A DNA stretch of 64,000 bases from Devosia beringensis. GTDB taxonomy: Bacteria > Pseudomonadota > Alphaproteobacteria > Rhizobiales > Devosiaceae. The stretch is taken from assembly GCF_014926585.1 (NCBI RefSeq), contig NZ_CP045422.1, positions 2,634,001 through 2,698,000 on the forward strand, read 5' to 3'. Positions 2,550 through 56,553 of the stretch are shown one piece after another. A program made the translations under genes and the position numbers. The first letter of the stretch is position 1. The number at the start of each line of letters is the position of its first letter. The notes below the pieces were generated by a model. The model was not told where the DNA came from and did no database searches. It saw only the letters and a program-made list of their open reading frames with translations.

Positions 2550-2714
2550 TCAGAGGATGGCCAGCATCAAGCCGACGACTGCCGCCAGAATGAGAAATGC
2601 CGGCGCCAATGCCTTGAACACGTCGCCATAATGGGTCTGACCATCATAGCCTTCCGTCCACACCATGCCGGTGCGGCTTGCCTGCTCAAGGGCCTTGAAA
2701 TCGATATTGGTCAT
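2550..2714 (-). CDS. Small single-span membrane protein
   Basis: A 54-residue protein, MTNIDFKALEQASRTGMV and onward, with a hydrophilic N-terminal half and one C-terminal membrane helix (about 35-53, ALAPAFLILAAVVGLMLAIL). The start is set by a GGAGG six bases before the ATG at 2714; a longer frame begins in non-coding-looking sequence. I do not recognise the family. Together with DUF883, the holin-like protein and DUF3309 it makes a local group of four short membrane proteins. Confidence 0.65.
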   Translation of the reverse strand: MTNIDFKALEQASRTGMVWTEGYDGQTHYGDVFKALAPAFLILAAVVGLMLAIL

Positions 2715-2839
2715 CACTGCCTCCGCCCTGTGCGGAGACGAAAACAAATGTTCTCGGCCGCCGCGCTGCGCCTTTTGCGCCTGGCCAAGAAACGAGAATG
2801 CATCGCTTTTGGTTCCGCCTGTCCGGCAAAAGCAGATGG

Positions 2840-6132: not shown

Positions 6133-6136
6133 GGGG

Positions 6137-9100: not shown

Positions 9101-9487
9101 CTGCTGCAGCAGCGGGCCGGCCGGCTCGGGCTGGCGATAGATGGACAGGTCGGGGCGCAGATCCTCGGGATAGTCGAAGGGGAAGGTTTCGGCACTTTCC
9201 TCGACGAAGAAATCGAAGGGGTTGTAGACCGTCATGTCGGCGACCAGGTCGACTTCGATCTTGAGCTCGGTGACGGGCTCGGGGAAGACGATGCGGGTCA
9301 GGAAATTGCCATAGGGGTCCTGCTGCACATTGACGAAATGCAGGCTGGGCGAGACGCGGAGCGAATAGCTCAGAACCTTGGTCTTGGAATGGGGCGCCGG
9401 CTGCAGGCGGATGATCTGGGGCTGCAAATAGACCGGGCGGTCATATTTGTAATGCGTCAGGTGATAGACGGCAGCTTTGATCGACAT
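6137..9487 (-). CDS. Large transglutaminase/DUF2126 protein
   Basis: A 1116-residue protein and first gene of the operon. Residues 1-100 are the transglutaminase N-terminal beta domain. The core carries Cys180 ([11 protein letters not shown]), His229 ([12 protein letters not shown]) and Asp245 (GLDPTSGL). The remaining ~800 residues are DUF2126, with motifs such as [38 protein letters not shown] and [14 protein letters not shown]. The last of these regions resembles glutamine-synthetase/amidoligase-like active-site loops (inference). No signal peptide is present. Only four bases separate it from the ATP-grasp/alpha-E gene. The three genes are the usual conserved cluster of unknown product. 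Confidence 0.9.
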
Positions 9488-9571
9488 ATATCAGCGTCGC
9501 TCTGTTCGGACCACGTAAGTGGGGCCAGCCTAGCGAGTGTGACGGCGTACCGCCAGCGTGGATGTTGCAGG

Positions 9572-11158: not shown

Positions 11159-11216
11159 AGCTCGGGCGCCTTCTTCTCGGTTCGGGCGCGACGTTAGCCG
11201 AAGGTTTGAACCTGGG

Positions 11217-12692
11217 CTAGAGCTTGTCGGCCAGATAGCGCTCGAGGGTTGCCCTGGTGCCGATTTTCCAGAGCGTATTCAGGGCGTTGGAGAAGGCGGT
11301 GATGAAGGCCGGGTTTTTGGCGAGGTCGCCATAGATGTCGGCCATGGCCAGCCAGGCGGCGGGATCGGCCTTGGCCAGCTTGGCCTGGGCGGTGAGGCGA
11401 GCCCAGCTGGGATCGTTGGGCTCGATGACGGCGCCGGAGTCCGTGGTGCCATAGCAATAGCGGCACCAAAGGGCACTCACGAGTGCCAATCCGTTAACAG
11501 ACTGTTGACGTTGAACCCGGTCAAAGGCCGACGGAATGATAAATTTGGGCTGCCGATTGGACCCGTCTAGGGCCAGCCGCCTTATGGTATCGCCGATTTT
11601 GGGATTGGCGAAACGGCGCTGGCAGAGCGCGTAATAGTCGCCAAGGTCAGTATCGGGCACGGGCGGGACGACGGGGATAATTTCTTCCTGCTCGACCTTG
11701 GTCAGGAAAGCGGCGACGAGCGAATGCTCCATCGCCTCGTGCACGAAGTGAATGTCGAGCAAGCCGGCGGGATAGGCGATGGTGGCGTGGCCGCCATTGA
11801 GGATACGGATTTTCATGTGTTCGTAGGGTGCCACATCATCAACGAACTGCACGCCGACCTTTTCCAGCGCGGGCCGGCCAGCCGGGAAATTGTCCTCGAG
11901 CACCCATTGCCGGAACTTCTCGCAGAAGACCGGCCAGTTATCCGCGATGCCGAAATTGTCGGCAAGCAGGGTCTTTTCACGGTCGGAGGTGGCCGGTGTG
12001 ATGCGGTCAACCATGCCGTTGGGAAAGGCGACATTGGCCTCAACCCAGGCGGCCAGAGCGGGATCGACCAGATTAGCGAGCCCGATCACCGCATTCTGGG
12101 TGACGTGGCCATTGCCCGGAATGTTGTCGCAGCTCATCACCGTGAAGGGGATCGTGCCGGCGGCGCGGCGGGCCAGGAGCCCGGCCAGGATCAGGCCGAA
12201 GGCGGTGCTCGGGGCAGCCATATTGGCGGCGTCATAGGCGATATCGGGATGGGCCGGATCGAACTGCTGGCTGGCCGGGTCGATATAGTAGCCGCCCTCG
12301 GTAATGGTCAGCGAGACGATGCGGGTGGCCGGATCGGCGAGGCGGGCGATGACCGCAGCGCTGTCGCCGGGGCGGAGATAGTCGATCATGGCGCCAGTGA
12401 TGCGGGCGCTGCTGGCATCGGCTTCCTGCTCGACCACGGTGGTCAGCCAGTCCTGGGCCAGCAGCTGCTGGCGCATGGCTTCATCGGCATCGCGCACGCC
12501 AGCGCCGATGATGGCCCAGTCATGATCGGCGCCAATGGCGAAGAGATCATCGAGATAGACGGCCTGGTGGGCGCGGTGAAAATTGCCGACGCCGAAATGG
12601 ACGATGCCCGGCGTCAAGGCGGCGCGGTCATAGGCCGGCACGGCGGCAGTGGTGATGGAAGCAAGCGCGGCAGCGGAGAGTTTTGTCGTCAT
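11217..12692 (-). CDS. mtlK: Mannitol-dehydrogenase-family polyol dehydrogenase
   Basis: A 491-residue protein from the ATG at 12692 (an AAGGA precedes it by about nine bases); the upstream in-frame extension is Arg/Pro-rich and not coding-like. The N-terminal NAD-binding region contains GIVHFGVGNFHRAHQAVYLDDL, a family signature. The C-terminal domain has KIRILNGGHATIAYPAGL with the catalytic Lys in the KxxxxNGxH motif. It oxidises mannitol, sorbitol or arabitol to the ketose with NAD in the cytoplasm. It lies between smoK and the FGGY kinase, as in smo/mtl clusters of Rhodobacter and rhizobia. Exact polyol preference cannot be read from sequence, so the symbol is by context. Confidence 0.88.
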   Translation of the reverse strand: MTTKLSAAALASITTAAVPAYDRAALTPGIVHFGVGNFHRAHQAVYLDDLFAIGADHDWAIIGAGVRDADEAMRQQLLAQDWLTTVVEQEADASSARITGAMIDYLRPGDSAAVIARLADPATRIVSLTITEGGYYIDPASQQFDPAHPDIAYDAANMAAPSTAFGLILAGLLARRAAGTIPFTVMSCDNIPGNGHVTQNAVIGLANLVDPALAAWVEANVAFPNGMVDRITPATSDREKTLLADNFGIADNWPVFCEKFRQWVLEDNFPAGRPALEKVGVQFVDDVAPYEHMKIRILNGGHATIAYPAGLLDIHFVHEAMEHSLVAAFLTKVEQEEIIPVVPPVPDTDLGDYYALCQRRFANPKIGDTIRRLALDGSNRQPKFIIPSAFDRVQRQQSVNGLALVSALWCRYCYGTTDSGAVIEPNDPSWARLTAQAKLAKADPAAWLAMADIYGDLAKNPAFITAFSNALNTLWKIGTRATLERYLADKL

Positions 12693-42148: not shown

Positions 42149-43057
42149 TTATCCTGCAACCCTGAGCTCGCGCCTGTCGGCATCAAGCGTCGTGGGTCGT
42201 CCCATCAGGATGCTTCTGGCGCCGGGGCCGTGACCGAGCGGGAGACCGCCCAGCAGCGGAATGCCGAGCGGCTGCAGATGCTCCCGCAACAGGTCGGTTA
42301 TGGTCAGCGTGCCGCTCGGCTTGAAGTCGGTGAACTGCCCTATGGCAATGGCGGCGACACCATCAAGATGACCACCCTTGCGCAGCATGGTCAGTTGCCG
42401 GTCGACCTGCCCGATGAACATATTAACCGCTTCGAGCAGCAGGATGCAGCCATCCAGCGGGGGCAGGGCCCAGCCTGCCGCGGTGGCGATCATGTCAAGA
42501 TTGCCGCCTAACAGAGCACCCTGGGCGGTGCCGCCTGTGGTGAGGCTGGCGGTTGGCTCTTCCGGCTGGGGCGTCAAGACAGTGGCCGGACTGCCCATCA
42601 GGATCGCCTTGAGCGGCGCAATATCGGCCTGCCTCTCCCAGTCCCGCTCATCGCCCTGAAACGCACCATGCACGGCCCCGCCAACGCCGTGCTTCCAGAG
42701 CGCCAGTTGCAGGATGGTGATGTCACTGAAGCCCACCACGAATTTGGGGTCGTTGCGGGCGGCGGCAAAATCGAGCGCGTCGGCAATGCGGTAGGATCCC
42801 TTGCCGCCGCGCGTGGCGAATATCGCCCTTACCTGCGGATCACGCAGTGCCGCGTTGACATCGTAAAGGCGCTGTTCGTCAGTGCCGGCCAGATAGTTCA
42901 ACCGCTCAAAGGCATGTTCGCCAAAATCGACCTCCAGCCCCCAGTGCCGGAGAGCCTCGGCGGTTTCTTCGATATCTGACCGCTGACAGGGACTGGCTGG
43001 AGAGACGAAGCGGATCTTGTCGCCGGGCTGCAGCGGTCGCGGGAAAACAGCATTCAT
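42149..43057 (-). CDS. LD-carboxypeptidase (peptidase S66, LdcA/MccF family)
   Basis: A 302-residue cytoplasmic enzyme with no signal peptide. The S66 triad is visible: Ser in VGFSDITILQL, Glu in CILLLEAVNMF and His in GLPLGHGPGARS; the oxyanion region is ATRGGKGSYRI. It would cleave the L-Lys/Dap-D-Ala bond of muropeptide tetrapeptides in murein recycling, or, like MccF, inactivate microcin-type peptides. The gene is convergent with the iron operon (one base between stop codons), so no shared function is implied. Confidence 0.9.
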   Translation of the reverse strand: MNAVFPRPLQPGDKIRFVSPASPCQRSDIEETAEALRHWGLEVDFGEHAFERLNYLAGTDEQRLYDVNAALRDPQVRAIFATRGGKGSYRIADALDFAAARNDPKFVVGFSDITILQLALWKHGVGGAVHGAFQGDERDWERQADIAPLKAILMGSPATVLTPQPEEPTASLTTGGTAQGALLGGNLDMIATAAGWALPPLDGCILLLEAVNMFIGQVDRQLTMLRKGGHLDGVAAIAIGQFTDFKPSGTLTITDLLREHLQPLGIPLLGGLPLGHGPGARSILMGRPTTLDADRRELRVAG

Positions 43058-43200
43058 GAAATGGCCTCGCAGGACTCAAGGATAGAAGGCCAGGAAAACC
43101 TGACTATGTCGACGCCAGCGAAACACTGATTTGTGCACGGTTTTGCCAGCGTGGCCCGCCCTGCAAGCAGCACAGATGGCATGTTTGATCGCGGAGGCGC

Positions 43201-44217
43201 TCAGCTTGGCGCCGGGCCGGTGCTTTCGCGCAGAACCAGTTCGACTGGCCAGACCTCGTGGATGTCGGCCACGGGCTTGCCGGCCTGGATCTGCAGGATC
43301 AACTCGGCAATGCGAATGCCGGCCAGGCTGATCGAGGAGCGGGTGGTCGACATGGAGGGGTACATGTTGTCGGCGTTGAGATAGGGGAAGACGTCGTCAT
43401 GGGCGATCATGGACACGTCCTGGCCCAAGGTCAGCCCGGCCTGGCGAATGGCCCGGAAGACGCCGAGCGCGGTCATCATCGAGCCGGCGAGGAAGGCCGT
43501 CGGCGGGGTGTCCAGCTCGAGCATGTCATGGGCGGTGCGGAAGGCGATTTCGTCGCTGAAGGCGGCATTGCTCAGCAGTGCCGGATCGCAGGGCACGCCG
43601 CGGGCCGCGAGCGCCTTGCGGTAGCCGCTCTCGCGGTGCACGGCAAAGGTGCGATCCTTGAAGCCGTTGAACAAAGCGATGCGGCGATGGCCGAGATCGA
43701 GCAGGTGGCTGGTGGCGCGCTCGATGGCGCCGGCATTGTCGATATCGAGCCAGGCATGGGGCGCGCCGATTTCGGTGCGGCCATGCAGAACGAATGGAAT
43801 ATTAAGCTCCATCAGCAGTTTGGCTCGCTCGTCATGCAGGGTGGGCGAATGCAGGATGATGGCATCGACCTTCTGGCTGGCGGCCAGACGGCGATAGGCG
43901 GCGACTTCTTCGTGATAGGTCTGGACCGTGGTGACGATGATGTCGATTTCCTCTTCGGCCAGGCGCCCGCCGACGCCGCTGAGGAACTCGCTGGTATGGG
44001 GGCCGAATTCGGAGGAGCCGCGCAGCACCATGCCGATGGCGCCGGCGCGGCCGGTGGCCAGGCGCAGCGCATTGGCATTGGGGCGATAGCCGAGCCGTGT
44101 CGCGGTCTCGGCGACGCGCAGCCGCGTGGCCTCGTTGACCTCTGGATAGCCATTGAGGGCGCGGCTGACGGTGGTCTGCGACAGGCCGAGATGCTCGGCC
44201 AGATCCTTTAGTCTCAT
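43201..44217 (-). CDS. LacI-family regulator of the disaccharide operons (AglR/ThuR-like)
   Basis: 338 residues from the ATG at 44217; an Arg/Pro-rich in-frame extension upstream is not coding-like. The N-terminal LacI helix-turn-helix is MRLKDLAEHLGLSQTTVSRALNGYPEV, with hinge YRPNANALRLATGR. The C-terminal effector domain is a periplasmic-binding-protein type I fold (VDAIILHSPTLHD, FVLHGRTEIGAPHAWLDIDN). Divergent from the agl-type operon. Two CAAAGCG-containing sites lie upstream of aglE, one also close to this gene's start, so autoregulation is likely. No second LacI gene accompanies the thu operon. Confidence 0.9.
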   Translation of the reverse strand: MRLKDLAEHLGLSQTTVSRALNGYPEVNEATRLRVAETATRLGYRPNANALRLATGRAGAIGMVLRGSSEFGPHTSEFLSGVGGRLAEEEIDIIVTTVQTYHEEVAAYRRLAASQKVDAIILHSPTLHDERAKLLMELNIPFVLHGRTEIGAPHAWLDIDNAGAIERATSHLLDLGHRRIALFNGFKDRTFAVHRESGYRKALAARGVPCDPALLSNAAFSDEIAFRTAHDMLELDTPPTAFLAGSMMTALGVFRAIRQAGLTLGQDVSMIAHDDVFPYLNADNMYPSMSTTRSSISLAGIRIAELILQIQAGKPVADIHEVWPVELVLRESTGPAPS

Positions 44218-44342
44218 AAGCGTGCGTGGCCCCTTCCGCGTCCGCTGGCAGGCCGGTGCCTTGGCTGGCACCTGGTCCGTTCGGCCGGCATGGGGGCAGC
44301 GGGTCGGCATCGAGCCGGTCCGCATCTTCCTCCATGCGCATT

Positions 44343-44354
44343 CAAAGCGATTTC
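44343..44354 (+). promoter_or_regulatory. Upstream LacI-type operator A (agl)
   Basis: CAAAGCGATTTC, matching the main operator at 10 of 12 positions and followed by AAATT. The same 17-base block, with one difference, is found at 49604 before the thu operon. Confidence 0.55.
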
Positions 44355-44558
44355 AAATTGCGACGCAAGGCCCGGTTTTCATGGGGTGGTTTTGCCGTGA
44401 TCGCAGCGGGCTGGCGGTCACTCCTGGGTGAGCCAGTTTGTCTCAGGCAGCCGTAACCTGCTGTGCGGTTAAGGTTATATCGATTGAAGCCCCTGATATC
44501 CCGTGATGGCGATAGAGCCGTGCTTGACAGGCCATGGCCACTCTGGTTGGTTTCGGCC

Positions 44559-44570
44559 CAAAGCGCTTTG
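44559..44570 (+). promoter_or_regulatory. Main LacI-type operator B (agl)
   Basis: The perfect palindrome CAAAGCGCTTTG, 35 bases after the start of a TTGACA, thus near the expected transcription start. It fits the LacI/CcpA-type consensus with a central CG. Confidence 0.75.
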
Positions 44571-44690
44571 ACCTGATGCCGGAGACGGCAGTGCAGCTGG
44601 CGCTTGGCGGGAGGACAGGCCCTTCATGCCGGCGCAAGCGCAGGCAGAATGGCGTGATCTCTCTTTTTCGGCTTACCGGGAGGATATCTT

Positions 44691-46055
44691 ATGAAGCTCA
44701 CCATGATGACAACGGCAATGCTGCTGGGCATTTCGTTGACGGCGACCAATGTGCAGGCGCAGGAACTGATGTTCCCCAAGGGCGAAGGCGCCTTCAGCTG
44801 GGCAGCGCTCGAAGAATTTGCCGCCGCCCATAGCGATCTGGCGGGCCAGACCCTGACCATTTGGGGTCCATGGCGCGAAGGCGGCGACCAGGAAATGTTT
44901 GAAAGCGTGCTGGCCTATTTCGAGGATGCCACCGGCGCAACGGTGAACTACGCCTCCTCGGAAAACTACGAGCAGCAGGCACAGATCGATGCTGCCGCCG
45001 GCTCGTCGGCCAATATCACCATCCTGCCGCAGCCAGGCCTGCTGGCCGACATGGCCTCCAAGGGCTATCTCGTGCCGCTGTCGGACGAGGTCAAGGCGGC
45101 CGTTGAATCCGGCAATGCTGCCGGTTCGTCCTTCGTCTCGCTGGGCACCTATGCCAATGCGAGCGGCGAAGAGGCCTTCTATGCCGTGCCCTACAAGTCG
45201 GACCTGAAGTCGCTGGTGTGGTACTCGCCGGACAATTTCGCCGATGCCGGCTATGAAGTGCCGCAGAGCTATGAAGAGCTCAAGACGCTCACCGAGACCA
45301 TGGTTGCCGATGGCGTGACGCCATGGTGCATCGGCCTGGGTTCGGGCGGCGCGACCGGCTGGCCGGCGACCGACTGGATCGAAGACATCATGCTGCGCAT
45401 CAATACGCCGGAAGATTATGATGCCTGGGTCAGCAATGAACTCAAGTTCAACGATCCAAAGGTCGTGGCTGCGCTCGAGGAATTCGGCTGGTTCGCCAAG
45501 GATGATGCCAAGGTTGCCGGTGGCGTCGCTGCCGTGGGCACCACGGACTTCCGCGAAAGCCCGCTCGGTCTCTTTGCCGTGCCGCCAGCCTGCTACATGC
45601 ACCACCAGGCCTCGTTCATTCCGTCCTTCTTCCCTGAAGGCACCGAACTGGGCACCGATGCGGACTTCTTCTACTTCCCCGCTTCGACCGAACGCGATCT
45701 GGGCCAGCCCGTGCTCGGCGCCGGTACTCTTGCCGTAGTCACCAAGGATTCCCCTGCTGCCCAGGCCTTCATCGACTTCCTGATGAACCCGATCTCCAAC
45801 GAGATCTGGATGGCTCAGTCCGGCTTCCTGTCGACGCTGCTGGCTGCCAATGTCGAGACCTATGCCAATGACACCCTCAAGGGTGAAGGCCAGATCCTGC
45901 TCGACGCGACCACGTTCCGCTTCGACGGGTCCGATCTGATGCCAGGCGCCATCGGCGCCGGCAGCTTCTGGACCGGCATGGTGGACTTTGTCGGCGGCAA
46001 GTCTGCACAGCAGGTTGGCGACGAAATCCAGGCAAGCTGGGACGCCATCAACTAA
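44691..46055 (+). CDS. aglE: Alpha-glucoside ABC transporter binding protein (AglE type)
   Basis: 454 residues; GGGAGGA ribosome site. Signal peptide of about 23 residues (ISLTATNVQA, then QELMFPKGEGAFSWAALEEF). The mature sequence LAGQTLTIWGPWREGGDQEMFESVLAYFEDATG and ITILPQPGLLADMASKGYL resemble AglE of Sinorhizobium, which binds sucrose, trehalose and maltose. First gene of a four-gene importer operon (binding protein, two permeases, ATPase). The alpha-glucosidase gene aglA, found between aglG and aglK in Sinorhizobium, is absent here. Confidence 0.9.
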   Translation: MKLTMMTTAMLLGISLTATNVQAQELMFPKGEGAFSWAALEEFAAAHSDLAGQTLTIWGPWREGGDQEMFESVLAYFEDATGATVNYASSENYEQQAQIDAAAGSSANITILPQPGLLADMASKGYLVPLSDEVKAAVESGNAAGSSFVSLGTYANASGEEAFYAVPYKSDLKSLVWYSPDNFADAGYEVPQSYEELKTLTETMVADGVTPWCIGLGSGGATGWPATDWIEDIMLRINTPEDYDAWVSNELKFNDPKVVAALEEFGWFAKDDAKVAGGVAAVGTTDFRESPLGLFAVPPACYMHHQASFIPSFFPEGTELGTDADFFYFPASTERDLGQPVLGAGTLAVVTKDSPAAQAFIDFLMNPISNEIWMAQSGFLSTLLAANVETYANDTLKGEGQILLDATTFRFDGSDLMPGAIGAGSFWTGMVDFVGGKSAQQVGDEIQASWDAIN

Positions 46056-46080
46056 GACGGCTATAAGAAGAATCATCGAG

Positions 46081-46098
46081 ACCGGCGCACGCGCCGGT
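46081..46098 (+). terminator. Hairpin after aglE
   Basis: ACCGGCGC and GCGCCGGT form a perfect eight-base stem with a two-base spacer, 26 bases after the aglE stop, followed by TTCG. A likely stabiliser or partial terminator. Confidence 0.65.
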
Positions 46099-46140
46099 TT
46101 CGTCCTATAAAAAGACGTCTGGATACGGGAGGAGCGGCAA

Positions 46141-47160
46141 TTGGGCGATATTGTGCAGCAATTGTTTGGCGCCGTCATCGCCATTGCCGTGGCGCTCGCC
46201 GCCTGTGTTGCCTATTTCTGGGGCAGCAACTGGCTGCTCGACCGCTTCCTCAATTCCGACAATGTGACGGGGGAAGCCGTTACCCGGCGTGACAGTCTGC
46301 GCGACCGGATCCGCCCGTGGCTGTTCCTGTTGCCGGCGCTGCTGTTCCTGTCGGTCTACCTGATCTATCCCGTGTTCGAGACGCTGCGCCTCAGCCTGCT
46401 CGACAAGTCCGGCCGCAATTTCGTGGGCTTTGCCAATTACGCCTGGGCGCTGTCGGACAGCAATTTCCAGCGCTCGATCCTCAACAACATCATGTGGCTG
46501 ATCGTGGTGCCGTCGCTGGCGACCGCCTTCGGACTGGTGATCGCCGTTTTGGCGGACCGGCTGTGGTGGGGCAATATCGCCAAGTCGCTGGTGTTCATGC
46601 CGATGGCGATCTCGTTTGTCGGCGCCTCGGTGATCTGGCGCTTCGTCTATGACTATCGCGGCGAGGGTGACGTGCAGATCGGCCTGCTCAACGCCATCGT
46701 CACCGGCTTCGGCCTGCCGCCGCAGGCCTGGATCACCATTCCGTTCTGGAATTCGCTGTTCCTGATGATCATCCTGGTCTGGATCCAGACCGGCTTTGCC
46801 ATGGTGATCCTGTCGGCGGCGCTGCGCGGCATTCCCGAGGAAACGCTCGAGGCCGCCCGCATCGACGGCGCCAGCGATATCCGCATCTTCTTCGACATCA
46901 TGATCCCGCAGATCATGGGGACGATCGTGGTGGTATGGACCACCATCACCATCGTGGTGCTCAAGGTGTTCGACATCATCTTTGCCATGACCAATGGGCA
47001 ATGGGACACCGAAGTGCTGGCCAATTTCATGTTCAAGTGGATGTTCGTCAACTTCGACTATGGCCGCGGCTCGGCCATTGCCGTGGTGATCATGCTGGCC
47101 GTGCTGCCGATCATGATCTGGAATATCCGTCGCGCCAATGCAGAGCAGGGGACACGCTAA
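46141..47160 (+). CDS. aglF: Alpha-glucoside ABC transporter permease (AglF type)
   Basis: 339 residues from a TTG start with a strong GGGAGGAGC upstream. An N-terminal helix (IVQQLFGAVIAIAVALAACVAYFW) precedes the usual six MalF-type helices; this extra leader helix is also seen in rhizobial AglF. EAA loop LEAARIDGASDIRIFFDIMIP. Its stop overlaps the next start by one base (TAATG). Confidence 0.9.
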   Translation: MGDIVQQLFGAVIAIAVALAACVAYFWGSNWLLDRFLNSDNVTGEAVTRRDSLRDRIRPWLFLLPALLFLSVYLIYPVFETLRLSLLDKSGRNFVGFANYAWALSDSNFQRSILNNIMWLIVVPSLATAFGLVIAVLADRLWWGNIAKSLVFMPMAISFVGASVIWRFVYDYRGEGDVQIGLLNAIVTGFGLPPQAWITIPFWNSLFLMIILVWIQTGFAMVILSAALRGIPEETLEAARIDGASDIRIFFDIMIPQIMGTIVVVWTTITIVVLKVFDIIFAMTNGQWDTEVLANFMFKWMFVNFDYGRGSAIAVVIMLAVLPIMIWNIRRANAEQGTR

Positions 47161-48365
47161 TGACCGCTGTCACCGAAACATCCGAGGCCGTTGTCGCCGC
47201 GCCGACCGTGCGCCGCAAGAACTGGTTCCAGCGCGTGCGGCCGGGACGGGTCGTGACCCATCTGGTGCTGCTGGCGCTGGTGGCGCTGTGGACGCTGCCG
47301 ACCGTGGGCCTGCTGGTCTCCTCGCTGCGCGACAAGGACCAGCTGGCGGTGTCGGGCTGGTGGACGGCGCTGAGCACGTCGGAATCGCTGGGCGTGACGC
47401 GCATCGGCACCGCCGCCGACCAGGCAGCCGAAGACGGTCGCTATGTCATCCGCGGCAATGTGTTCGGCAGCGATACCAACAAGCAATTGGGTGGCTTCGG
47501 GCTGAGCAATCGGGAGCCGGCGGCAGAGCCACCCGGCGGCAGCCTGCCCATGTCGGAAGGCGGCGCGATCAGCGTGGCTGAAGACGGCAATTTTGAATGG
47601 GTCTCCGATACCGAGTTCACCCATACGCGCGGCCCGCGCGTTTTCTACCAGGCCCGTATTGCGCCGCGCTTCACGCTCGACAATTACTGGGAAGTGCTGA
47701 CATCCAACGGGGTGGCGCGCAGCTTCATCAACTCGTTCACGGTGACCATTCCGGCCACCATCATCCCGATCCTGATCGCCGCCTTTGCCGCCTATGCGCT
47801 GGCGTGGATGCGGTTTCCGTTCCGCGGCCTCATCGTCGCGCTGGTGGTGGGCCTGCTGGTCGTGCCGCTGCAGATGTCGCTGATCCCGCTGCTGACGCTC
47901 TATAACCAGATCGCGCAGCTCATGGGCGCCTCGGATGGCAAGACCTATCTGGGCATATGGCTGGCCCATACCGCCTTCGGCCTGCCGCTGGCCATTTATC
48001 TCTTGCGCAATTACATGGTGGGCCTGCCCAAGGAGATCATGGAATCGGCGCGCATCGACGGCGCCAGCCACTTCAAGATCTTTACCGGCATGGTGCTGCC
48101 GCTGAGCTTTCCGGCGCTGGCCTCGTTCTCGATCTTCCAGTTCCTGTGGGTGTGGAATGACCTGCTGGTGGCCATGGTGTTCCTGGGCGCGCAGCAGGAT
48201 CGCCTGGTGCTGACCGGCAAGCTGGTAAGCCTGCTCGGTTCGCGCGGCAATAACTGGGAAATCCTCACGGCCGGGGCATTCATCACCATCGTGGTGCCGC
48301 TGATCGTGTTCTTTGCGCTGCAGCGCTATTTCGTCCGCGGGTTGCTGGCGGGTTCAGTCAAGTAA
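47160..48365 (+). CDS. aglG: Alpha-glucoside ABC transporter permease (AglG type)
   Basis: 401 residues from the ATG at 47160. Longer than a normal MalG-type permease (about 280) because an approximately 100-residue periplasmic insertion follows the first helix (residues about 60-165, including RYVIRGNVFGSDTNKQLGG and TRGPRVFYQARIAPRFTLDN). AglG proteins are known for this extension. EAA loop MESARIDGASHFKIFTGMVLP. The insertion may contact the binding protein. Confidence 0.9.
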   Translation: MTAVTETSEAVVAAPTVRRKNWFQRVRPGRVVTHLVLLALVALWTLPTVGLLVSSLRDKDQLAVSGWWTALSTSESLGVTRIGTAADQAAEDGRYVIRGNVFGSDTNKQLGGFGLSNREPAAEPPGGSLPMSEGGAISVAEDGNFEWVSDTEFTHTRGPRVFYQARIAPRFTLDNYWEVLTSNGVARSFINSFTVTIPATIIPILIAAFAAYALAWMRFPFRGLIVALVVGLLVVPLQMSLIPLLTLYNQIAQLMGASDGKTYLGIWLAHTAFGLPLAIYLLRNYMVGLPKEIMESARIDGASHFKIFTGMVLPLSFPALASFSIFQFLWVWNDLLVAMVFLGAQQDRLVLTGKLVSLLGSRGNNWEILTAGAFITIVVPLIVFFALQRYFVRGLLAGSVK

Positions 48366-48425
48366 GTCGGGCACTCGGCCTGCAGCCGTCCCCGGACGGT
48401 TCATGAGAAGAAAGAAGAGCGGATC

Positions 48426-49430
48426 GTGACAAACCTCAAGCTCACCGACCTCAGCAAGCGTTATGGCCAGGTTGAAGTGCTCAAGCACATCAATCTCGAC
48501 ATCCATTCGGGCGAGTTCATGGTGTTTGTCGGCCCGTCGGGCTGCGGCAAGTCCACCCTGCTGCGCTGCATTGCCGGGCTTGAGGAAATCACCGGCGGCA
48601 CGCTCGAGATCGAGGGCGAGGTGGTCAATGATCGTGCCCCGTCCAAGCGTGGCATTGCCATGGTGTTCCAGAGCTATGCGCTCTATCCGCATATGAGCGT
48701 GTTCGACAACATGGCTTATGCGCTCAAGATCGCCAATGCGCCCAAGGAAGAGATCGAGACCAAGGTCGCTGCAGCCGCAGAGCAGCTGCAGCTGACGCCC
48801 TATCTCAAGCGCCTGCCGGGGCAGCTGTCGGGTGGGCAGCGCCAGCGCGTGGCGATCGGCCGGGCCATTGTGCGCGACCCCAAGGTGTTCCTGTTCGACG
48901 AGCCGCTCAGCAATCTGGACGCGGCGCTGCGCGTGGCCACGCGCATCCAGATCGCCAAGCTGCACGAGACCATGACCAAGACCACCATGATCTATGTGAC
49001 GCATGACCAAGTCGAGGCGATGACGCTGGCCGACCGGATCTGCGTGCTGCGCGACGGCCAGATCCAGCAGGTCGGCACGCCGATGGAGCTCTACGAGACG
49101 CCCCAATCGCTGTTTGTGGCGAGCTTTATCGGCTCGCCCAAGATGAACCTGATCGAGGGTGAACTGGCCAAGCCGTTCAATGCCCATACGGTGGGGATTC
49201 GCAGCGAGCACATGACCGTATCTCCCGATGCCGGCACCTGGAGCGGCACGGTGATCCATACGGAAAACCTGGGCTCGGACAGCTATGTCTATATCGACAT
49301 GGGCCAGGAGGACCCGGTTGTGGTGCGCGTCGATGGCTCGACCAAGTATCGCAGCGGCGACAATATCCACTTCTCGCCGATCGACGACAAGATCCATCGC
49401 TTCGACGCTGCCGGCCTGCCTGTCGGCTGA
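48426..49430 (+). CDS. aglK: Alpha-glucoside ABC transporter ATP-binding protein (AglK type)
   Basis: 334 residues from a GTG. Walker [24 protein letters not shown], signature [31 protein letters not shown] and a C-terminal TOBE domain (HTVGIRSEHMTV). Very similar to the ThuK ATPase at 53137-54144, including the same intra-gene blocks ([20 protein letters not shown]), which points to duplication of an ATPase gene. Sixty bases after aglG, with a small palindrome CCGTCC/GGACGG in the gap. Confidence 0.92.
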   Translation: MTNLKLTDLSKRYGQVEVLKHINLDIHSGEFMVFVGPSGCGKSTLLRCIAGLEEITGGTLEIEGEVVNDRAPSKRGIAMVFQSYALYPHMSVFDNMAYALKIANAPKEEIETKVAAAAEQLQLTPYLKRLPGQLSGGQRQRVAIGRAIVRDPKVFLFDEPLSNLDAALRVATRIQIAKLHETMTKTTMIYVTHDQVEAMTLADRICVLRDGQIQQVGTPMELYETPQSLFVASFIGSPKMNLIEGELAKPFNAHTVGIRSEHMTVSPDAGTWSGTVIHTENLGSDSYVYIDMGQEDPVVVRVDGSTKYRSGDNIHFSPIDDKIHRFDAAGLPVG

Positions 49431-49603
49431 TCTGCGGGCCAGGTCACAGGCCGACCTGGCTGCCCCAACAAACCTGCTCCGCACCGGCCAGGCTATGCCT
49501 GTTGGCGGCTGGCAATTTTTGGTTGCCTACTTGGCTGGTTGTCGACAGCCGCCTCTGGATGTCATCCCGCCACGTCGCGTTAACCGACGCGCGGTCAGTC
49601 TTC

Positions 49604-49615
49604 CAAAGCGGTTTC
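49604..49615 (+). promoter_or_regulatory. Upstream LacI-type operator A' (thu)
   Basis: CAAAGCGGTTTC, followed by AAATT, is the counterpart of the agl site at 44343. It lies 215 bases from the main thu operator. Confidence 0.55.
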
Positions 49616-49818
49616 AAATTTCAGCAAAATAGTTAACACCGAACCGTCTGGCTTGAGGTGCGTACATCAGAATGCCTGTGCCGGGATGTAGCGCGAAATT
49701 CACATTGTCATTCTATCCTGCTGATCCAGAAGGATAAAATCTGACCGCGTTGCGACGTCAGGCGAGTTACCCACAACGCGCGCTTGACAGAGATTTGGCG
49801 CTCTGCTTTCTTTTTAAC

Positions 49819-49830
49819 CAAAGCGCTTTG
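49819..49830 (+). promoter_or_regulatory. Main LacI-type operator B' (thu)
   Basis: The same perfect palindrome CAAAGCGCTTTG as before aglE, and also 35 bases after the start of a TTGACA. Confidence 0.75.
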
Positions 49831-49949
49831 AAAAGACGGCAGGATTGCCGCGACACAGGGCTTTTGAGGGAGGGGATCGAGTATGTCGGCACAGCTGTGT
49901 CGGGCTGCCCATGCCTTTCCGAAGGATGTTTCATTCGGGAGGAAATCTA

Positions 49950-51218
49950 ATGAAAATGCACACAATGCTCGTTGGTCTGCTGACGAGCGTGACCCTGGTG
50001 ATGGGGTCGGCCCAGGCCGCGGAGCTCTCAATTGTCTCGGGTGATACCGGCAATGGCCTGGCCTTCCTGCGCAGCCAGCTCGACAAGTTTGAGGCCGATA
50101 CGGGCAATACCGTCACCATCGTGCCGATGCCTTCCTCGACGAGCGATCAGTTCGGCCAGTATCGGCTGTGGCTGGCGGCCGGCAATGCCGATATCGACGT
50201 GTACCAGACCGACGTGATCTGGGCGCCGCAGCTGGCCGATCAGTTCCTCGATCTGACCGATGCGGCCAAGGATGTTGTGGGCGAGCACTTCCCCTCGATC
50301 ATCGAGTCGCAGACCGTGGACGGCAAGCTTGTCGCCCTGCCGGCCTTCACCGACGCACCGGCGCTGTTCTACCGCACTGACCTGCTGGAAAAGCACAACA
50401 AGCCCGTCCCCACCACCTGGGACGAGATGGCCGCGACCGCGCAGGAAATTATGGATGCCGAGCGCGCCGAGGGCCAGGCCGACATGTATGGCTTCGTGTT
50501 CCAGGGCAATGCCTATGAAGGCCTTACCTGCGACGCGCTGGAATGGGTGATGTCCAATGGCGGCGGCCAGATCGTCGAAGCCGATGGCACTATCTCTATC
50601 AACAACGAGAAGGCCGCTGCCGCCATCGATCGCGCCGCCGGCTGGATCGGCACCATCTCGCCCGATGGCAACCTGGCCTATCAGGAAGAAGAAAGCCGCG
50701 GCGTTTGGCAGCTGGGCAATGCGGTGTTCATGCGCAACTGGCCCTATGCCTATGCGCTGGGCAATGGCGATGACTCGGCGGTGAAGGGCAAGTTCGACGT
50801 GGCCCCGCTCCCGGCCGGTGATGGCGAAGGCGCCCGTTCGGCGGCGACGCTGGGCGGCTGGAACGTGGCTGTGTCCAAGTACTCGCCCGATCCGGAAGAG
50901 GCCATCAAGCTGGCGCTCTACCTGTCCTCGACCGAGGTACAGAAGGAACGCGCCATCAACCAGTCCAACCTGCCAACCATCGAGTCGCTCTATGACGACG
51001 CAGACGTGCTGGCCGCCTCACCCTTCATGGCCAACTGGAAAGAGATTTTCCAGAATGCCGTGCCACGGCCATCGGCCCCCACCAAGGTCAAGTACAACGA
51101 GGTCTCCTCGCTGTTCTGGAGCGCCGTGCACAACACGCTGTCGGGCAATGGCTCGGCCGCCGAGAACCTCGAAGTTCTTGAAGCCGATCTGACCGAGCTC
51201 AAGGGCGACGCCTGGTAA
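49950..51218 (+). CDS. thuE: Trehalose/disaccharide ABC transporter binding protein (ThuE type)
   Basis: 422 residues from the ATG at 49950, with a GGGAGG ribosome site. Signal peptide of about 23 residues (LTSVTLVMGSAQA, then AELSIVSGDTGNGLAFLRSQ). The mature protein matches family-1 sugar binders of the ThuE group (RLWLAAGNADIDVYQTDVIWAPQLADQFLDL). In Sinorhizobium and Agrobacterium ThuEFGK import trehalose, maltitol and sucrose isomers. It leads a thuE-F-G-K-A-B order identical to that of rhizobia. Confidence 0.9.
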   Translation: MKMHTMLVGLLTSVTLVMGSAQAAELSIVSGDTGNGLAFLRSQLDKFEADTGNTVTIVPMPSSTSDQFGQYRLWLAAGNADIDVYQTDVIWAPQLADQFLDLTDAAKDVVGEHFPSIIESQTVDGKLVALPAFTDAPALFYRTDLLEKHNKPVPTTWDEMAATAQEIMDAERAEGQADMYGFVFQGNAYEGLTCDALEWVMSNGGGQIVEADGTISINNEKAAAAIDRAAGWIGTISPDGNLAYQEEESRGVWQLGNAVFMRNWPYAYALGNGDDSAVKGKFDVAPLPAGDGEGARSAATLGGWNVAVSKYSPDPEEAIKLALYLSSTEVQKERAINQSNLPTIESLYDDADVLAASPFMANWKEIFQNAVPRPSAPTKVKYNEVSSLFWSAVHNTLSGNGSAAENLEVLEADLTELKGDAW

Positions 51219-51244
51219 GTCCTCCCAGGACACCACGGGGTGGA

Positions 51245-51262
51245 CGGCCGGTGACCCGGCCG
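51245..51262 (+). terminator. Hairpin after thuE
   Basis: CGGCCGG and CCGGCCG with loop TGAC, 26 bases after the thuE stop; a likely attenuator or stabiliser. Confidence 0.6.
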
Positions 51263-51299
51263 CCCGCCCCGACCCATATAGTGCGCAGGGAGAGGCAGA

Positions 51300-52279
51300 A
51301 TGGCGAGTGATATAGCGGTGTCCGCCCGCCCCATCGTGGTGGTCAAGGGACGAACGGAACTGAGCCAGCAAAGGCTGGCGGCGGCACGATGGTTCCTGCT
51401 GCCCATGCTGGCGGCGCTGTGCGTGGTGGCCGGCTGGCCATTGCTGCGCTCGATCTGGTTTTCCTTCACCGATGCCTCGCTGACGGACCTCTATGGGGCC
51501 GAATTCATCGGCGTAGGCAATTATATACGCTGGACCACGCTGGAAAGCGGCAGGACAGTCTATCGCGGCCTGCTGGTCGACCCGGCTTGGTGGAATGCGG
51601 TGTGGAACACGCTGCGCTTTGCCTTCTGGTCGGTGAGTTTCGAGGCAGTGTTCGGCATGATCGTGGCTCTGGTGCTCAATGCCGAATTCCGCGGTCGTGG
51701 CTTTGTCCGTGCCGCCATCCTCATTCCCTGGGCGATCCCGACGATCGTTTCGGCCAAGATGTGGGCCTGGATGCTCAATGACCAATTCGGCATTCTCAAC
51801 GATCTGGGCCTGCGCCTGGGCCTGCTCAGCCAGAAGGTGGCCTGGACGGCCACGGCCGAGACGGCCATGCAGGCCGTGCTGGTGGTCGATATCTGGAAGA
51901 CCACGCCGTTCATGGCGCTGCTGATCCTGGCCGGGCTGCAGATGATCCCCAAGGACATTTACGAGGCGGCCGAACTGGACGGCGTGCATCCGGCCAAGCA
52001 GTTCTTCGCCATCACCCTGCCGCTGGTGCGGCCGGCCCTGATGGTGGCGATCATCTTCCGGCTGCTCGACGCGCTGCGCATTTTCGACCTGATCTATGTG
52101 CTGACGCCCAATAGCGCGGCGACCAAGACGATGAGCGTGCTGGCGCGGGAGAACCTGTTCGACTTCGACAAGTTTGCCTATGGCTCGGCGCAATCGACGC
52201 TGCTGTTCCTGATCATCGCGGTGCTGACCGTGCTCTATATCTGGCTGGGCAAAGTCCGGTTTGACGGGGGAGACCGCTG

Positions 52280-52280
<1 letters not shown>
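51300..52280 (+). CDS. thuF: Disaccharide ABC transporter permease (ThuF type)
   Basis: 326 residues with a GGGAGAGG ribosome site. Six helices, the first about 32-50 (FLLPMLAALCVVAGWPLLRS). EAA loop YEAAELDGVHPAKQFFAITLP. Couples to thuG by TGATG overlap. Together they form the inner-membrane channel. Confidence 0.9.
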
Positions 52281-53125
<845 letters not shown>

Positions 53126-53136
53126 GGAGCTAAACA

Positions 53137-54144
53137 ATGGCAAGCATCGAGCTGCGTAACATCCGCAAGGCCTTTGGCGTGGTCGAGGTGATCAAGGGGG
53201 TCGACCTGACGGTCCGCAAGGGCGAGTTCATGGTCTTTGTCGGTCCGTCGGGTTGCGGCAAATCCACCCTGCTGCGGCTGATCTCGGGGCTGGAGGACAT
53301 TACCTCGGGCGAGATGCTGTTCGACGGCAAGGTGGTCAATGCGCTGGCGCCGTCCAAACGCGGCATCGCCATGGTGTTCCAGAGCTATGCGCTCTATCCG
53401 CACATGACGGTGTTCGACAACATGGCCTTCGGGCTGACGCTGGAAAAGGGCCATGGCAAGGAGGAGATCCGCCAGCGCGTCGAGAAGGCGGCAGAAATGC
53501 TGCAGATCACGCCCTATCTCGACCGGCTGCCCAAGCAGCTTTCGGGTGGGCAGCGGCAGCGCGTGGCGATCGGGCGGGCGATCACGCGCGACCCCAAGGT
53601 GTTCCTGTTCGATGAGCCGCTGAGCAATCTGGATGCTGCGCTGCGGGTGGCGACGCGGATCGAGATCGCCAAGCTGCATGAGAGCATGGACAATGTGACC
53701 ATGATCTATGTGACGCATGACCAGGTCGAGGCGATGACGCTGGCGGACCGGATCTGCGTGCTGCGGGATGGGCTGATCGAGCAGGTCGGCACGCCCATGG
53801 AGCTTTATGAACAACCCAATTCGGTGTTCGTGGCCGGCTTTATCGGCTCGCCCAAGATGAATTTCATCGCCGGCGAGAAGGCCGCGGCCTTCGACGCCCA
53901 TACGGTGGGCATTCGCGGCGAGCACCTGACCATCGTGCCCGACAATGGCACCTGGAGCGGCACGGTGATCCACAAGGAAAACCTGGGCGCCGACAGCTAC
54001 GTGTACCTCGAAATGGGCACCGAGGAGCCAGTGGTGGTGCGTCTCGATGGGGCCAATGACTACCGGAGCGGGGACGTGGTGCAGATCACGCCGATGGCCG
54101 ACCGGGTCCACAGGTTCAATGCGGCAGGCAAACCGATCGCCTGA
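53137..54144 (+). CDS. thuK: Disaccharide ABC transporter ATP-binding protein (ThuK type)
   Basis: A 335-residue MalK-class ATPase. Walker [10 protein letters not shown], signature [14 protein letters not shown], Walker [13 protein letters not shown] and a TOBE domain ending [18 protein letters not shown] ribosome site. Close relative of AglK at 48426-49430. Confidence 0.92.
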
Positions 54145-54312
54145 CACGAAAAAACTGTCAGCATCGTCCAACTTTGGCCATCTGGACCCTAGACTGCGTC
54201 ATATTGGACAGCGCCAATGGCGTGGCGTGCATCGGGCTGGAAGCCGGCTTTGCAACGTGCCAATTTACTGCCGTGCTGCACCTCCCTGCGGCACATCCAA
54301 CAGGAGAATTTC

Positions 54313-55095
54313 ATGCCGATCCGTACCCTGGTCTGGGGCGAGAACGTTCACGAGCAGAAGAACAAAATCGTCGCCGACAACTATCCCGAGGGGATGCACA
54401 ACCAGATTGCCAAGCTGCTGGCCAGCGACAGCAATATCGTGACCAGGACCACCACGCTGCAGGAGCCCGAGCATGGCTGCACCGTCGAGGCGCTGGCCGA
54501 GACCGACGTGCTGGTCTGGTGGGGCCACGCGGCCCATGGCCAGGTCGAGGACGAGATCGTCGAGCGCATTGCCAAGCGGGTATGGGAGGGCATGGGCCTG
54601 ATCGTGCTGCATTCGGGCCATTTCTCCAAGATTTTCAAGCGCCTGATGGGCTCGCCCTGTGCGCTGCACTGGCGCGAGGCCGGCGAGCGCGAGCGGCTTT
54701 GGGTCACGAGCCCGGGCCATCCGATCGCCAAGGGGCTGCCGGCCTATTTCGAGCTCGAAATGGAAGAGATGTATGGCGAGCCCTTCAGCGTGCCAGAGCC
54801 GCTCGAGACCGTGTTTGTCAGCTGGTTCCAAGGCGGGGAAGTGTTCCGCAGCGGCCTGACCTACCGGCGCGGCGCCGGCAATGTGTTCTACTTCCGGCCG
54901 GGGCATGAAACCTATCCGACCTATCACGACGACACGGTCGGGCTGGTGCTGCGCAATGCGGTGAACTGGGCCTATAATGCCAACCAGCATCCCGAACTGC
55001 TCGAGGCACCCAATACGCCGGTAGAAGAGTCGATCGAACCGCTGGTCGAGCGCGGCCCCAAGCTGCATCACGGCCGCGAAGAAGGCTTCAAGTAG
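54313..55095 (+). CDS. thuA: ThuA trehalose-utilisation protein
   Basis: 260 residues from the ATG at 54313 (AGGAG seven bases upstream); a longer in-frame extension has no ribosome site. ThuA family (class-I glutamine-amidotransferase-like fold): [64 protein letters not shown] and [14 protein letters not shown]. In rhizobia ThuA works with ThuB to form and process 3-keto derivatives of trehalose and related disaccharides. A 168-base gap separates it from thuK, and a long hairpin repeat follows its stop. Confidence 0.92.
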
Positions 55096-55106
55096 GATGA
55101 GCCGGT

Positions 55107-55222
55107 CTCCAGGTGAGGCTGGCCTGCAAATGGTGGTCTTTTGCGCTTCCGGTGCTCACGTACCTCAGTACGCTCCGCTCCGGCTCTCAAAGACCATCAT
55201 TTTCGCCTCAGCCTGATCTGGA
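55107..55222 (+). repeat. Long structured hairpin repeat, copy 1
   Basis: A repeat of about 110 bases begins 12 bases after the thuA stop. Core TGCGCTTCCGGTGCTCACGT leads into CGTAC, loop CTCA, GTACG. Outer arms GGTGGTCTTT and AAAGACCATC pair. Copy 2 at 61587-61703 has the same core and different but still paired arms. Confidence 0.8.
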
Positions 55223-55324
55223 CCCCGACATATCCTTGGTGCCCCCATAACAAACCAATCTGCTGCCAAACCGGCTTGTCAGGCAATGAACGGATCACCG
55301 CGGTGATCGAGAAGGATTAAGAGA

Positions 55325-56371
55325 ATGCGGCTGCTCATTCTGGGTACCGGGGGCATGGCCAATACCCATGCCAAGCATTTTGCGGCCATCGAGGGGGTGA
55401 CCCTGGTGGGCGGGGTGGATGTCGATCCGGCGCGGGTCGAGGCGTTTAACCAGATCCACGGCATCGAGCGGGGCTTCGGCTCGCTGGATGCGGCGCTGGC
55501 CTGGGGCGAGTTCGACGCTGTGGCCAATGTCACGCCAGACTCGATCCATCACCCCACGACCATGGCGGCGCTGCGGGCCGGCAAGCACGTGTTCTGCGAA
55601 AAGCCGCTGGCGACCGACCACGCCAAGGCCATGGAAATGACCGAGCTGGCCGAGCAGATGGGCCTGATCAACATGGTCAATCTGACCTATCGCAATGTCA
55701 GCCAGCTGCAGAAGGCGCGCGAAATCGTGCAGTCGGGCGCGGTGGGCACGGTCAAGCATTTCGAGGCCAGCTATCTGCAAAGCTGGCTGGTATCGAAGGC
55801 CTGGGGCGACTGGCGCACCGAGAGCCAGTGGCTTTGGCGGCTGAGCAAGAAGCACGGCTCAAACGGCGTGCTGGGCGATATCGGTGTGCATATCCTGGAC
55901 TTTGCCGCCTTCGGTGCGGGCAGCGATTTCTCCAAGGTCTTCTGCCGGCTCGAAACCTTTGCCAAGGCGGAAAACAACAGAATCGGCGAATATGACCTCG
56001 ACGCGAATGACAGCTTTGCCATGACGGCGCAGCTGGAAAACGGCGCGCTGGGCGTGATCCATGCCACGCGCTGGGCAACCGGGCATTTCAACGAGTTGCG
56101 CCTGCGAATCTATGGCGAGCTGGGCTCTGTGGAGGTGCAGCACCGGCATGACTGGAGCAAGCTGTTCACCTGCCTGGGCGACGATGCGGAAACCGGCACC
56201 TGGACGGAAGTGGATGTCGAGCCGGTGCCGACCAACTACATGCGTTTCTTCGAGGCGGTGCAGAGCGGCCAGAACCTCGAACCCAGCTTCCGCCACGCCA
56301 CCAATATCCAGCGGGTGCTTGATCTGGCTACGGTCACCGATCGCGACCGGCACGAACTGTCGGTGCGCTAG
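55325..56371 (+). CDS. thuB: ThuB Gfo/Idh/MocA-family oxidoreductase
   Basis: A 348-residue NAD(P) oxidoreductase. The N-terminal Rossmann fold has MRLLILGTGGMANTHAKHF, and the family EKP motif is in HVFCEKPLATDHAKAM. The C-terminal domain contains GGxxxD-like GVLGDIGVHILDFAAFG. AAGGA ribosome site. In rhizobia ThuB oxidises the C3 hydroxyl of trehalose, maltitol or sucrose isomers. A 229-base gap with the long hairpin repeat separates it from thuA, so it may be expressed differently from the transport genes. Confidence 0.92.
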   Translation: MRLLILGTGGMANTHAKHFAAIEGVTLVGGVDVDPARVEAFNQIHGIERGFGSLDAALAWGEFDAVANVTPDSIHHPTTMAALRAGKHVFCEKPLATDHAKAMEMTELAEQMGLINMVNLTYRNVSQLQKAREIVQSGAVGTVKHFEASYLQSWLVSKAWGDWRTESQWLWRLSKKHGSNGVLGDIGVHILDFAAFGAGSDFSKVFCRLETFAKAENNRIGEYDLDANDSFAMTAQLENGALGVIHATRWATGHFNELRLRIYGELGSVEVQHRHDWSKLFTCLGDDAETGTWTEVDVEPVPTNYMRFFEAVQSGQNLEPSFRHATNIQRVLDLATVTDRDRHELSVR

Positions 56372-56553
56372 GCGCTTTGTGCGACAGCCGGACTGGCCAC
56401 GGGCCGGGCCGGCTGACCGGCTGCCGCCCGTAGGCCACATGCGTTGTCCGGTTTGCCGGCACGGCGCAGTGGACCAGCCTCCCGCCCATGGGCGGGCAGG
56501 CTGTGGGCCGCCATCAGGGCTGATAGCGTGGTAGCCAGGATGATCTTGTCCAT
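56368..56553 (-). CDS. Small secreted or membrane protein, hypothetical
   Basis: A 61-residue frame with a strong GAAAGGAGC ribosome site seven bases before the ATG. MDKIILATTLSALMAAHSLPAHG looks like a signal peptide; the rest is Ala/Pro/Arg-rich (GREAGPLRRAGKPDNACG, AAAGQPARPVASPAVAQSA). It overlaps the thuB stop codon by four bases in convergent orientation. No recognised family. Ribosome site and signal-like start are the main evidence. Confidence 0.5.
   Translation of the reverse strand: MDKIILATTLSALMAAHSLPAHGREAGPLRRAGKPDNACGLRAAAGQPARPVASPAVAQSA

Follow-up and report, generated by a model that had tools for sequence, protein, structure and literature searches.

How do two neighboring disaccharide importer operons come to carry the same pair of operators at the same spacing when only one LacI-type regulator gene lies beside them? 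The question is raised by a 64,000-nucleotide stretch of the Devosia beringensis genome (contig NZ_CP045422.1, positions 2,634,001 to 2,698,000; hereafter the window), in which aglEFGK sits between the regulator gene and thuE. An original prediction held that one regulator coordinates both importers, perhaps by looping between an upstream operator (A) and a downstream operator (B), with the spacing maintained independently at each operon. We suggest that a single regulator, ThuR, probably acts on all four sites, that A and B would be bridged over a loop bent by integration host factor (IHF), and that both importers would be repressed in this way. The elements ahead of the two operons are:

44343 to 44354, no strand: putative operator A of agl (CAAAGCGATTTC), identical in all 12 letters in 63 of the 65 other thuR-thuE regions of Devosia
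44524 to 44529, plus strand: putative -35 hexamer TTGACA of agl, from the sequence
44559 to 44570, no strand: putative operator B of agl (CAAAGCGCTTTG), from the sequence and its genome-wide count
49604 to 49615, no strand: putative operator A of thu (CAAAGCGGTTTC), kept in genomes G000, G024 and G070 despite the loss of the thuR promoter there
49784 to 49789, plus strand: putative -35 hexamer TTGACA of thu, from the sequence
49819 to 49830, no strand: putative operator B of thu (CAAAGCGCTTTG), from the sequence and its genome-wide count

All six strings stand where they had been predicted, and the predicted distances are borne out as well: A and B are 216 base pairs (bp) apart at agl (44343 and 44559) and 215 bp at thu (49604 and 49819), TTGACA (44524 and 49784) precedes B by 35 bp at both operons, and both A sites run on into AAATT. 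The strict palindrome CAAAGCGCTTTG occurs at two places in the 4,048,765-base genome, one ahead of each importer operon, where about 0.15 are expected. The relaxed pattern CAAAGCGNTTTS has four exact matches in the window and seven genome-wide. With up to two mismatches, it has 35 matches in the window compared to 27.6 expected, i.e. no enrichment over chance, and the operator signal thus resides in the exact sites. A wider ThuR regulon was dropped because the three exact matches outside the window all sit within long open reading frames. All four window sites contain the core AAAnCGnTTT, with outer letters closer to the AglR motif than to the ThuR-type natcnAAAnCGnTTTngatt. The two-operator pattern is real and not a product of chance.

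The same arrangement is found in the 65 other Devosia thuR-thuE regions, in which B matches CAAAGCGCTTTG exactly in 49 and with a single mismatch in 16. The spacing is conserved in these relatives, with A-B distances of 214-218 bp in 66 of 68 Devosia regions and of 205 and 206 bp in the remaining two, and TTGAC lies 35 bp ahead of B in 67 of the 68 thu regions. Upstream of the second thuE copies of G010 and G015, the sites are absent. GCAAG is present at A+22 in 61 of the 65 regions, and A fills the spacer of a putative thuR promoter; this position suggests that thuR is autoregulated through operator A. All 65 regions also contain a palindrome near TGAGGTGCGTACATCA, here called P, mostly 50 bp past A. 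The two additional elements are:

44340 to 44369, minus strand: putative thuR promoter overlapping operator A, with -35 CTTGC (GCAAG at 44365-44369) and -10 TTGAAT (44340-44345)
49654 to 49669, no strand: P element, palindrome TGAGGTGCGTACATCA

The P motif TGAGGTNCGTACNTCA has exact matches in 52 of 61 Devosia genomes, while the reversed control has none in all 61. The P-B distance is 165-167 bp in 81 of 90 regions, and the A-P distance varies in steps of about 11 bp (39, 50, 61 and 72). As a motif, P is spread across the genus and has a few further targets in sugar genes, which suggests a second regulator at thu; the P-binding protein was not identified from the other genomic targets of P. 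Besides thuR-thuE, the recurrent neighbors of P, named by eye, are a sugar-oxidoreductase/TIM-barrel-like gene pair, the beginning of a xylulokinase-like gene that follows one of LacI type, and a gene resembling pyridoxamine oxidase (loci L263-L265, L275, L276, L283, L284, L286, L287, L300 and L302).

In a family-wide search, a close aglE was found within the genus only in G000, G024 and G070. In these three genomes, A and B are present in both the thuR-aglE gap and the aglK-thuE gap, and A-B is 216 bp on the agl side and 215 bp on the thu side in 3/3. The agl-side copies have kept the thuR -35 (3/3) and lost P (3/3) with A-B still at 216 bp; the thu-side copies have kept P and A (3/3) and lost the thuR -35 (3/3). 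The sequences between the sites do not match, as had been noted from the window: interior identity between the copies and among the three species is 0.52-0.61, compared to 0.56 for shuffled letters. Because the interior is at the level of random identity while sites and spacing persist, the conserved items are the sites and the distance between them.

Across genera, the distance between the operators is phased to the DNA helix in Devosiaceae, Rhizobiaceae and Phyllobacteriaceae, with a period of 10.4 bp. In Devosiaceae, Phyllobacterium, Rhizobium and Ensifer, A-B distances form clusters at about 175, 185, 197, 205, 216, 226 and 237 bp. In Rhizobiaceae and Phyllobacteriaceae, 29 of 33 loci (named relatives) have two AAAnCGnTTT sites opposite thuE, spaced by 173-176, 183-186, 196-198 or 218-219 bp. 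We compared 29 tree-independent pairs, a set without G000, G024, G070, G058, G154 and pairs nearer than 0.04. In 23 of them A-B is the same to within 2 bp, no pair falls in the range of 3-10 bp, and the remaining differences are 11, 11, 11, 23, 25 and 38 bp. As controls in the same pairs, the thuR-A distance differs by at least 3 bp in 14 and the distance from B to the ATG start codon in 13; the missing class of 3-9 bp has a Fisher p of 0.0045 against the pooled controls and of 0.051 against thuR-A alone. When periods of 6 to 20 bp were scanned over 25 clade values, 10.4 bp gave the best fit, with R 0.68; 0 of 2000 uniform random sets reached this value, and the controls gave 0.15 for thuR-A and 0.36 for B-ATG. 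This dataset left out L223 and L228 (conspecific with G125 and G121), L248 (thuA next) and the single-site loci L224, L242, L251 and L253. Of 11 shift events read off the tree, eight deviate from whole turns by at most 1.1 bp (p 0.0003); the spacing p values are optimistic because several Rhizobium and Ensifer neighbors are not independent. The 25 clades, the 11 shift events and the 11 held-out clusters described below were grouped by eye from the LacI tree or by family code.

A candidate for the bend in the proposed loop is an IHF-like site (tAANNNNaTTGaa), which in Devosia lies 105 bp ahead of B and within about 3 bp of the A-B midpoint. Sites were scored against the nine-letter IHF consensus and are candidates by consensus only:

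44454 to 44466, plus strand: degraded IHF-like site of agl (TAACCTGCTGTGC), 6 of 9 consensus letters
49714 to 49726, plus strand: IHF-like site of thu (TATCCTGCTGATC), 7 of 9 letters

A score of at least 7 of 9 is reached at B-105 (±2 bp) in 82 of 90 regions, with a mean of 7.8 at this place and a median of 5.2 at other offsets; regions of G058, G058b, G045 and G154, those with A-B of at most 170 bp and those with more than one mismatch in B were left out. In Rhizobiaceae and Phyllobacteriaceae, 19 of 29 loci reach 7 at this place compared to 5.7% elsewhere. In Rhizobium and Ensifer, the B arm is about 105 bp and the A arm is shorter, and in three Phyllobacterium loci the best IHF-like site is at B-116, one turn further. 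Genes for both IHF subunits, ihfA and ihfB, are present in the genome with scores over the curated cut-offs. Thus, the looping that had been proposed as a possibility is supported by the conserved, helix-stepped spacing, from which we infer it.

Several points weigh against this reading. The Devosia phase and an IHF-like site at B-105 were predicted for new families beforehand, and 31 new loci were then fetched (L337 was left out as a duplicate of L252). Two operators are present in 29 of the 31; the Devosia phase (within 2 bp) is present in only nine of these 29, and counted by clusters in 7 of 11 (p 0.08 to 0.22), which is no confirmation. Other phases are found in the families coded f15 (mostly 220-224 bp), f40 (157-158 bp) and f23 (158-160 bp), and in the new families the IHF-like site at B-105 is almost absent. 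The extension of the Devosia phase with IHF at B-105 through the whole order therefore partly failed in this test. In f15, an IHF-like site is present at B-109 in 9 of 14 loci (background 2.2%), about 2 bp from the midpoint, a regularity found after the fact. The two-operator region with a candidate bend near its middle hence extends wider than the particular phase. Within the families that carry the phase, G125 (178 bp) and G128 (231 bp) miss it and the group at 196-198 bp is 1.5 bp off; the events counted are few and were taken from a single gene tree in which some branches are open; and the A-P and P-B constraints could account for part of the A-B constraint. The window's own IHF-like sites, with scores of 6 and 7, are among the weaker ones. 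The motif of PckR, another LacI-type protein, quoted for Sinorhizobium as TNNAANCGNTT (PMC8877191), fits these operators too. A counterpart of the C-terminal tetramer helix of LacI is absent from the regulator, for which the alignment ends at LacI 329-333 of 360; A-B bridging may therefore proceed through paired dimers or another surface. Finally, LacI loops of about 300 bp are reported to form nearly equally well out of phase (PMC2682762), and strict phasing would therefore need a rigid IHF bend.

The alternative that survives best is that of two ordinary repressed promoters without a loop, in which B blocks the promoter and A autoregulates thuR, while the constant distances stem from promoter geometry and from an activator bound at P whose contact with the thuE promoter depends on the IHF bend. 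The overlap of A with the putative thuR promoter and the constancy of P-B fit this alternative, and the A-P steps of about 11 bp would also suit an activator upstream of thuR. However, the thu-side A has stayed in place in all three genomes in which the thuR -35 next to it was lost, the three agl-side copies without P still hold A-B at 216 bp, and paired operators at a distance are also found in other families of the order (P was not searched for there). We therefore regard a looped arrangement as the better account and the loop-free one as unlikely.

Which protein would bind these sites? The regulator encoded in the window is:

43201 to 44217, minus strand: LacI-family regulator of 338 amino acids with LacI and Peripla_BP Pfam domains (PF00356, PF00532 and PF13377), ThuR by descent and by its position in relatives; it lies inside the ThuR clade, and its orthologs are opposite thuE

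In a search of 60 related genomes, an ortholog with 74-88% identity is present in 35 of 36 congeners, and the gene opposite the regulator is thuE in 34 of the 35 congener regions, with G024 as the exception, and likewise in further relatives. In a LacI tree (FastTree, 144 rows, Shimodaira-Hasegawa-like support, with ThuR and AglR labels judged from the gene neighborhood), the regulator branches with ThuR inside AglR, and the regulators of G000, G024 and G070 form a clade (support 99) nested in the Devosia ThuR clade. Because thuE faces the regulator in relatives and because of this nesting, the regulator is, by these comparisons, ThuR by descent. The regulator is thus to be read as ThuR and not as AglR, and agl is the extra member among its proposed targets. 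Devosia and Phyllobacterium retain AAAGCGCTTT, while the ThuR regions of Rhizobium, Ensifer and Sinorhizobium (L229-L261) mostly have AAAnCGnTTT variants like AAACCGTTTT and AAATCGTTTT; the motif has therefore changed inside the ThuR clade. In L173 (G116) and L174 (G113), ThuR orthologs face thuA-thuB without a thuEFGK importer between.

No second ortholog of the regulator was found in the genome at E≤1e-80. Three Devosia genomes, G085, G096 and G017, have thuE and no regulator ortholog by the same threshold, and in all three the A/B pair ahead of thuE is missing. A decayed B-like site is left in G085 (10/12 letters, at the usual place) and in G096 (9/12), and the genome of G017 is 62% complete; with n=3, the loss of the sites looks like decay following loss of the regulator. 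The shared operators, the lack of a second ortholog and the disappearance of the sites with the regulator thus support by inference one regulator for both operons, to which ThuR would bind. It is improbable, though no search aimed at a PckR ortholog was made, that a different LacI-type protein, e.g. a PckR-like one, binds one or both operons. At E≤0.001, this LacI does have 20 matches in the genome, its own included, the PckR motif mentioned above fits the sites, and P indicates the action of one or more additional proteins at thu. However, the next paralog is only 33% identical, the sites are missing where the ortholog is, and a strict palindrome at two genomic places is unlike the target set of a broad regulator.

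How, then, did the second importer arrive at this switch? The genes of the two operons are:

44691 to 46055, plus strand: aglE, solute-binding protein (SBP_bac_1; orthologs in sister genera), named by analogy
46141 to 47160, plus strand: aglF, permease
47160 to 48365, plus strand: aglG, permease
48426 to 49430, plus strand: aglK, ATPase, after a 60-base aglG-aglK gap with no aglA between
49950 to 51218, plus strand: thuE, solute-binding protein (SBP_bac_1; orthologs)
51300 to 52280, plus strand: thuF, permease
52280 to 53125, plus strand: thuG, putative permease, with gene order conserved in relatives
53137 to 54144, plus strand: thuK, ATPase
54313 to 55095, plus strand: thuA (Pfam ThuA PF06283)
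55325 to 56371, plus strand: thuB, GFO_IDH_MocA oxidoreductase

The agl genes do not form a canonical agl operon (aglEFG, aglA and an AglR of its own), as there is no room for aglA or a LacI gene between aglG and aglK. That interval holds a regulator gene and a GH13 alpha-glucosidase gene in L106 and L112, two loci of sister genera; this LacI-type gene (L106 7689-8798, L112 8813-9922), on the opposite strand and ahead of the GH13 gene, is probably a dedicated AglR there. Where agl lies away from ThuR in other genera of the family, CAAAACGTTTTG precedes aglE in 16 of 17 loci (L113 has none) and CAAAGCGCTTTG in 0 of 17. The idea that agl carried its operators along is thus unsupported. Both control regions instead seem to descend by duplication from a single ancestral thuR-thuE region, and do not look like independent inventions. 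The shared architecture had been correctly seen, and the spacing has been kept separately in each copy. That the duplication is simply recent, with a second copy too young to diverge and a spacing inherited without selection, could draw on the A, B, -35 and CTCTG-GTT-like block common to both regions and on the occurrence of both copies together in one clade only, but is very improbable given that sites and spacing were kept while the interior fell to the level of random identity. The clade of G000, G024 and G070 is sister to the other Devosia with a support of only 45 in the LacI tree, and agl was either gained in the window's clade or lost in other Devosia.

Elsewhere, too, agl is found at this switch. 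In G126 and G108, a ThuR ortholog is beside aglE with A-B distances of 217 and 216 bp. In L104 (G126, 2563-11855), the order ThuR ortholog, aglEFGK, thuA, thuB places the agl importer where thuEFGK would be, and no thuE was found in G126. In f15, the neighbor of the same regulator is aglE in G050, G196 and G333, and all other f15 loci fetched have thuE at this place; exchange of importers under this switch has therefore happened more than once.

Downstream of B, a short stem-loop is present in the window (44571-44610 and 49831-49870) and in relatives, centered at about B+24 to B+32, with varying letters. Leader stems of at least 5 bp occur in 28 of 90 regions, compared to 6.3% in shuffles, and have 21 different sequences; the folding energy of the leader after B shows no excess (mean z -0.46, 90 regions). 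The sole Rfam match within 43000-56500, IRES_Bip, was dismissed as chance, with 16 of 40 bits and far under the gathering score.

Based on these comparisons, we suggest the following model. In the absence of sugar, ThuR would silence both importer operons from four sites. At each operon, the strong site B, near the transcription start, and the weaker site A, some 216 bp upstream of it, would both be occupied by ThuR and joined by it, with IHF bending the intervening loop close to its midpoint. Repression would act on initiation at B, and sugar would release ThuR. On the agl side, where A lies within the putative thuR promoter, the loop would also control thuR. aglEFGK, without a regulator and an alpha-glucosidase of its own, would have been placed between thuR and thuE, preceded by a duplicate of the control region. 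In Ensifer aridi, deletion of thuR raises thuE and thuR, and trehalose is thought to be the effector there (PMC8877191).

We judge it about equally likely to hold and to fail that the A-IHF-B loop serves the order Hyphomicrobiales as a portable regulatory socket. If so, it would hold thu importers in most of the species seen, agl importers in G126, G108, G050, G196, G333 and G355, and both in the window's clade, where the duplicated loops would have split duties, with the thuR promoter on the agl side and P on the thu side. A second importer would have been brought under an existing switch by copying the switch and not by altering the regulator. The history of the spacing would record the helical repeat, such that evolution itself ran the insertion experiment. 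At the bench, base insertions have revealed how looping works in a few E. coli operons, and looping in lac and ara was proved in this way; here, 113 natural control regions are measurable, and within one family group the spacing shifts by whole helical turns. This would provide a natural measure of phase constraint, indicates IHF as the source of the bend and opens a non-model repressor to testing. We regard it as unusual comparative evidence for helical phasing in one family group, drawn from sequence.

No description of this loop or of Devosia thu/agl was found in a search covering part of the literature. Among known systems, the proposed arrangement resembles the E. coli lac loop in having a strong operator at the start, an auxiliary operator and, as proposed here, repression by looping. 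It differs in that the LacI tetramer forms via a helix without a counterpart here, and the lac loop is not known to require an IHF site. The E. coli gal repressosome (GalR and HU) and the ula divergon (UlaR and IHF) each combine two operators with a protein that bends the looped DNA. In ula the region is divergent and the bending protein is IHF, but UlaR belongs to the DeoR family; gal uses HU and a shorter loop. Whole-turn spacing changes among relatives are not known for gal or ula, and the part of the literature searched contained no paper on the ula loop.

Ensifer aridi ThuR likewise has two predicted sites in the thuR-thuE region, while looping, helical phase and IHF are not raised in the portion of that account available to us (PMC8877191). 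AglR and ThuR of Rhizobiales are described as local LacI-family regulators that each control their own gene and one operon, with the motifs AAAnCGnTTT for ThuR and tcAAAGCGCTTTga for AglR, and with ThuR nested in a paraphyletic AglR (PMC4052901, Ravcheev et al. 2014). Section 9 of that study gives intersite peaks at 13, 22 and 32 bp, and long-range phased pairs and IHF are not mentioned in that section as seen. The system described here is like those regulons in having a LacI-family regulator opposite an agl or thu operon, related motifs and autoregulation. By contrast, in Devosia one ThuR would serve both agl and thu, and it retains an AglR-type motif.

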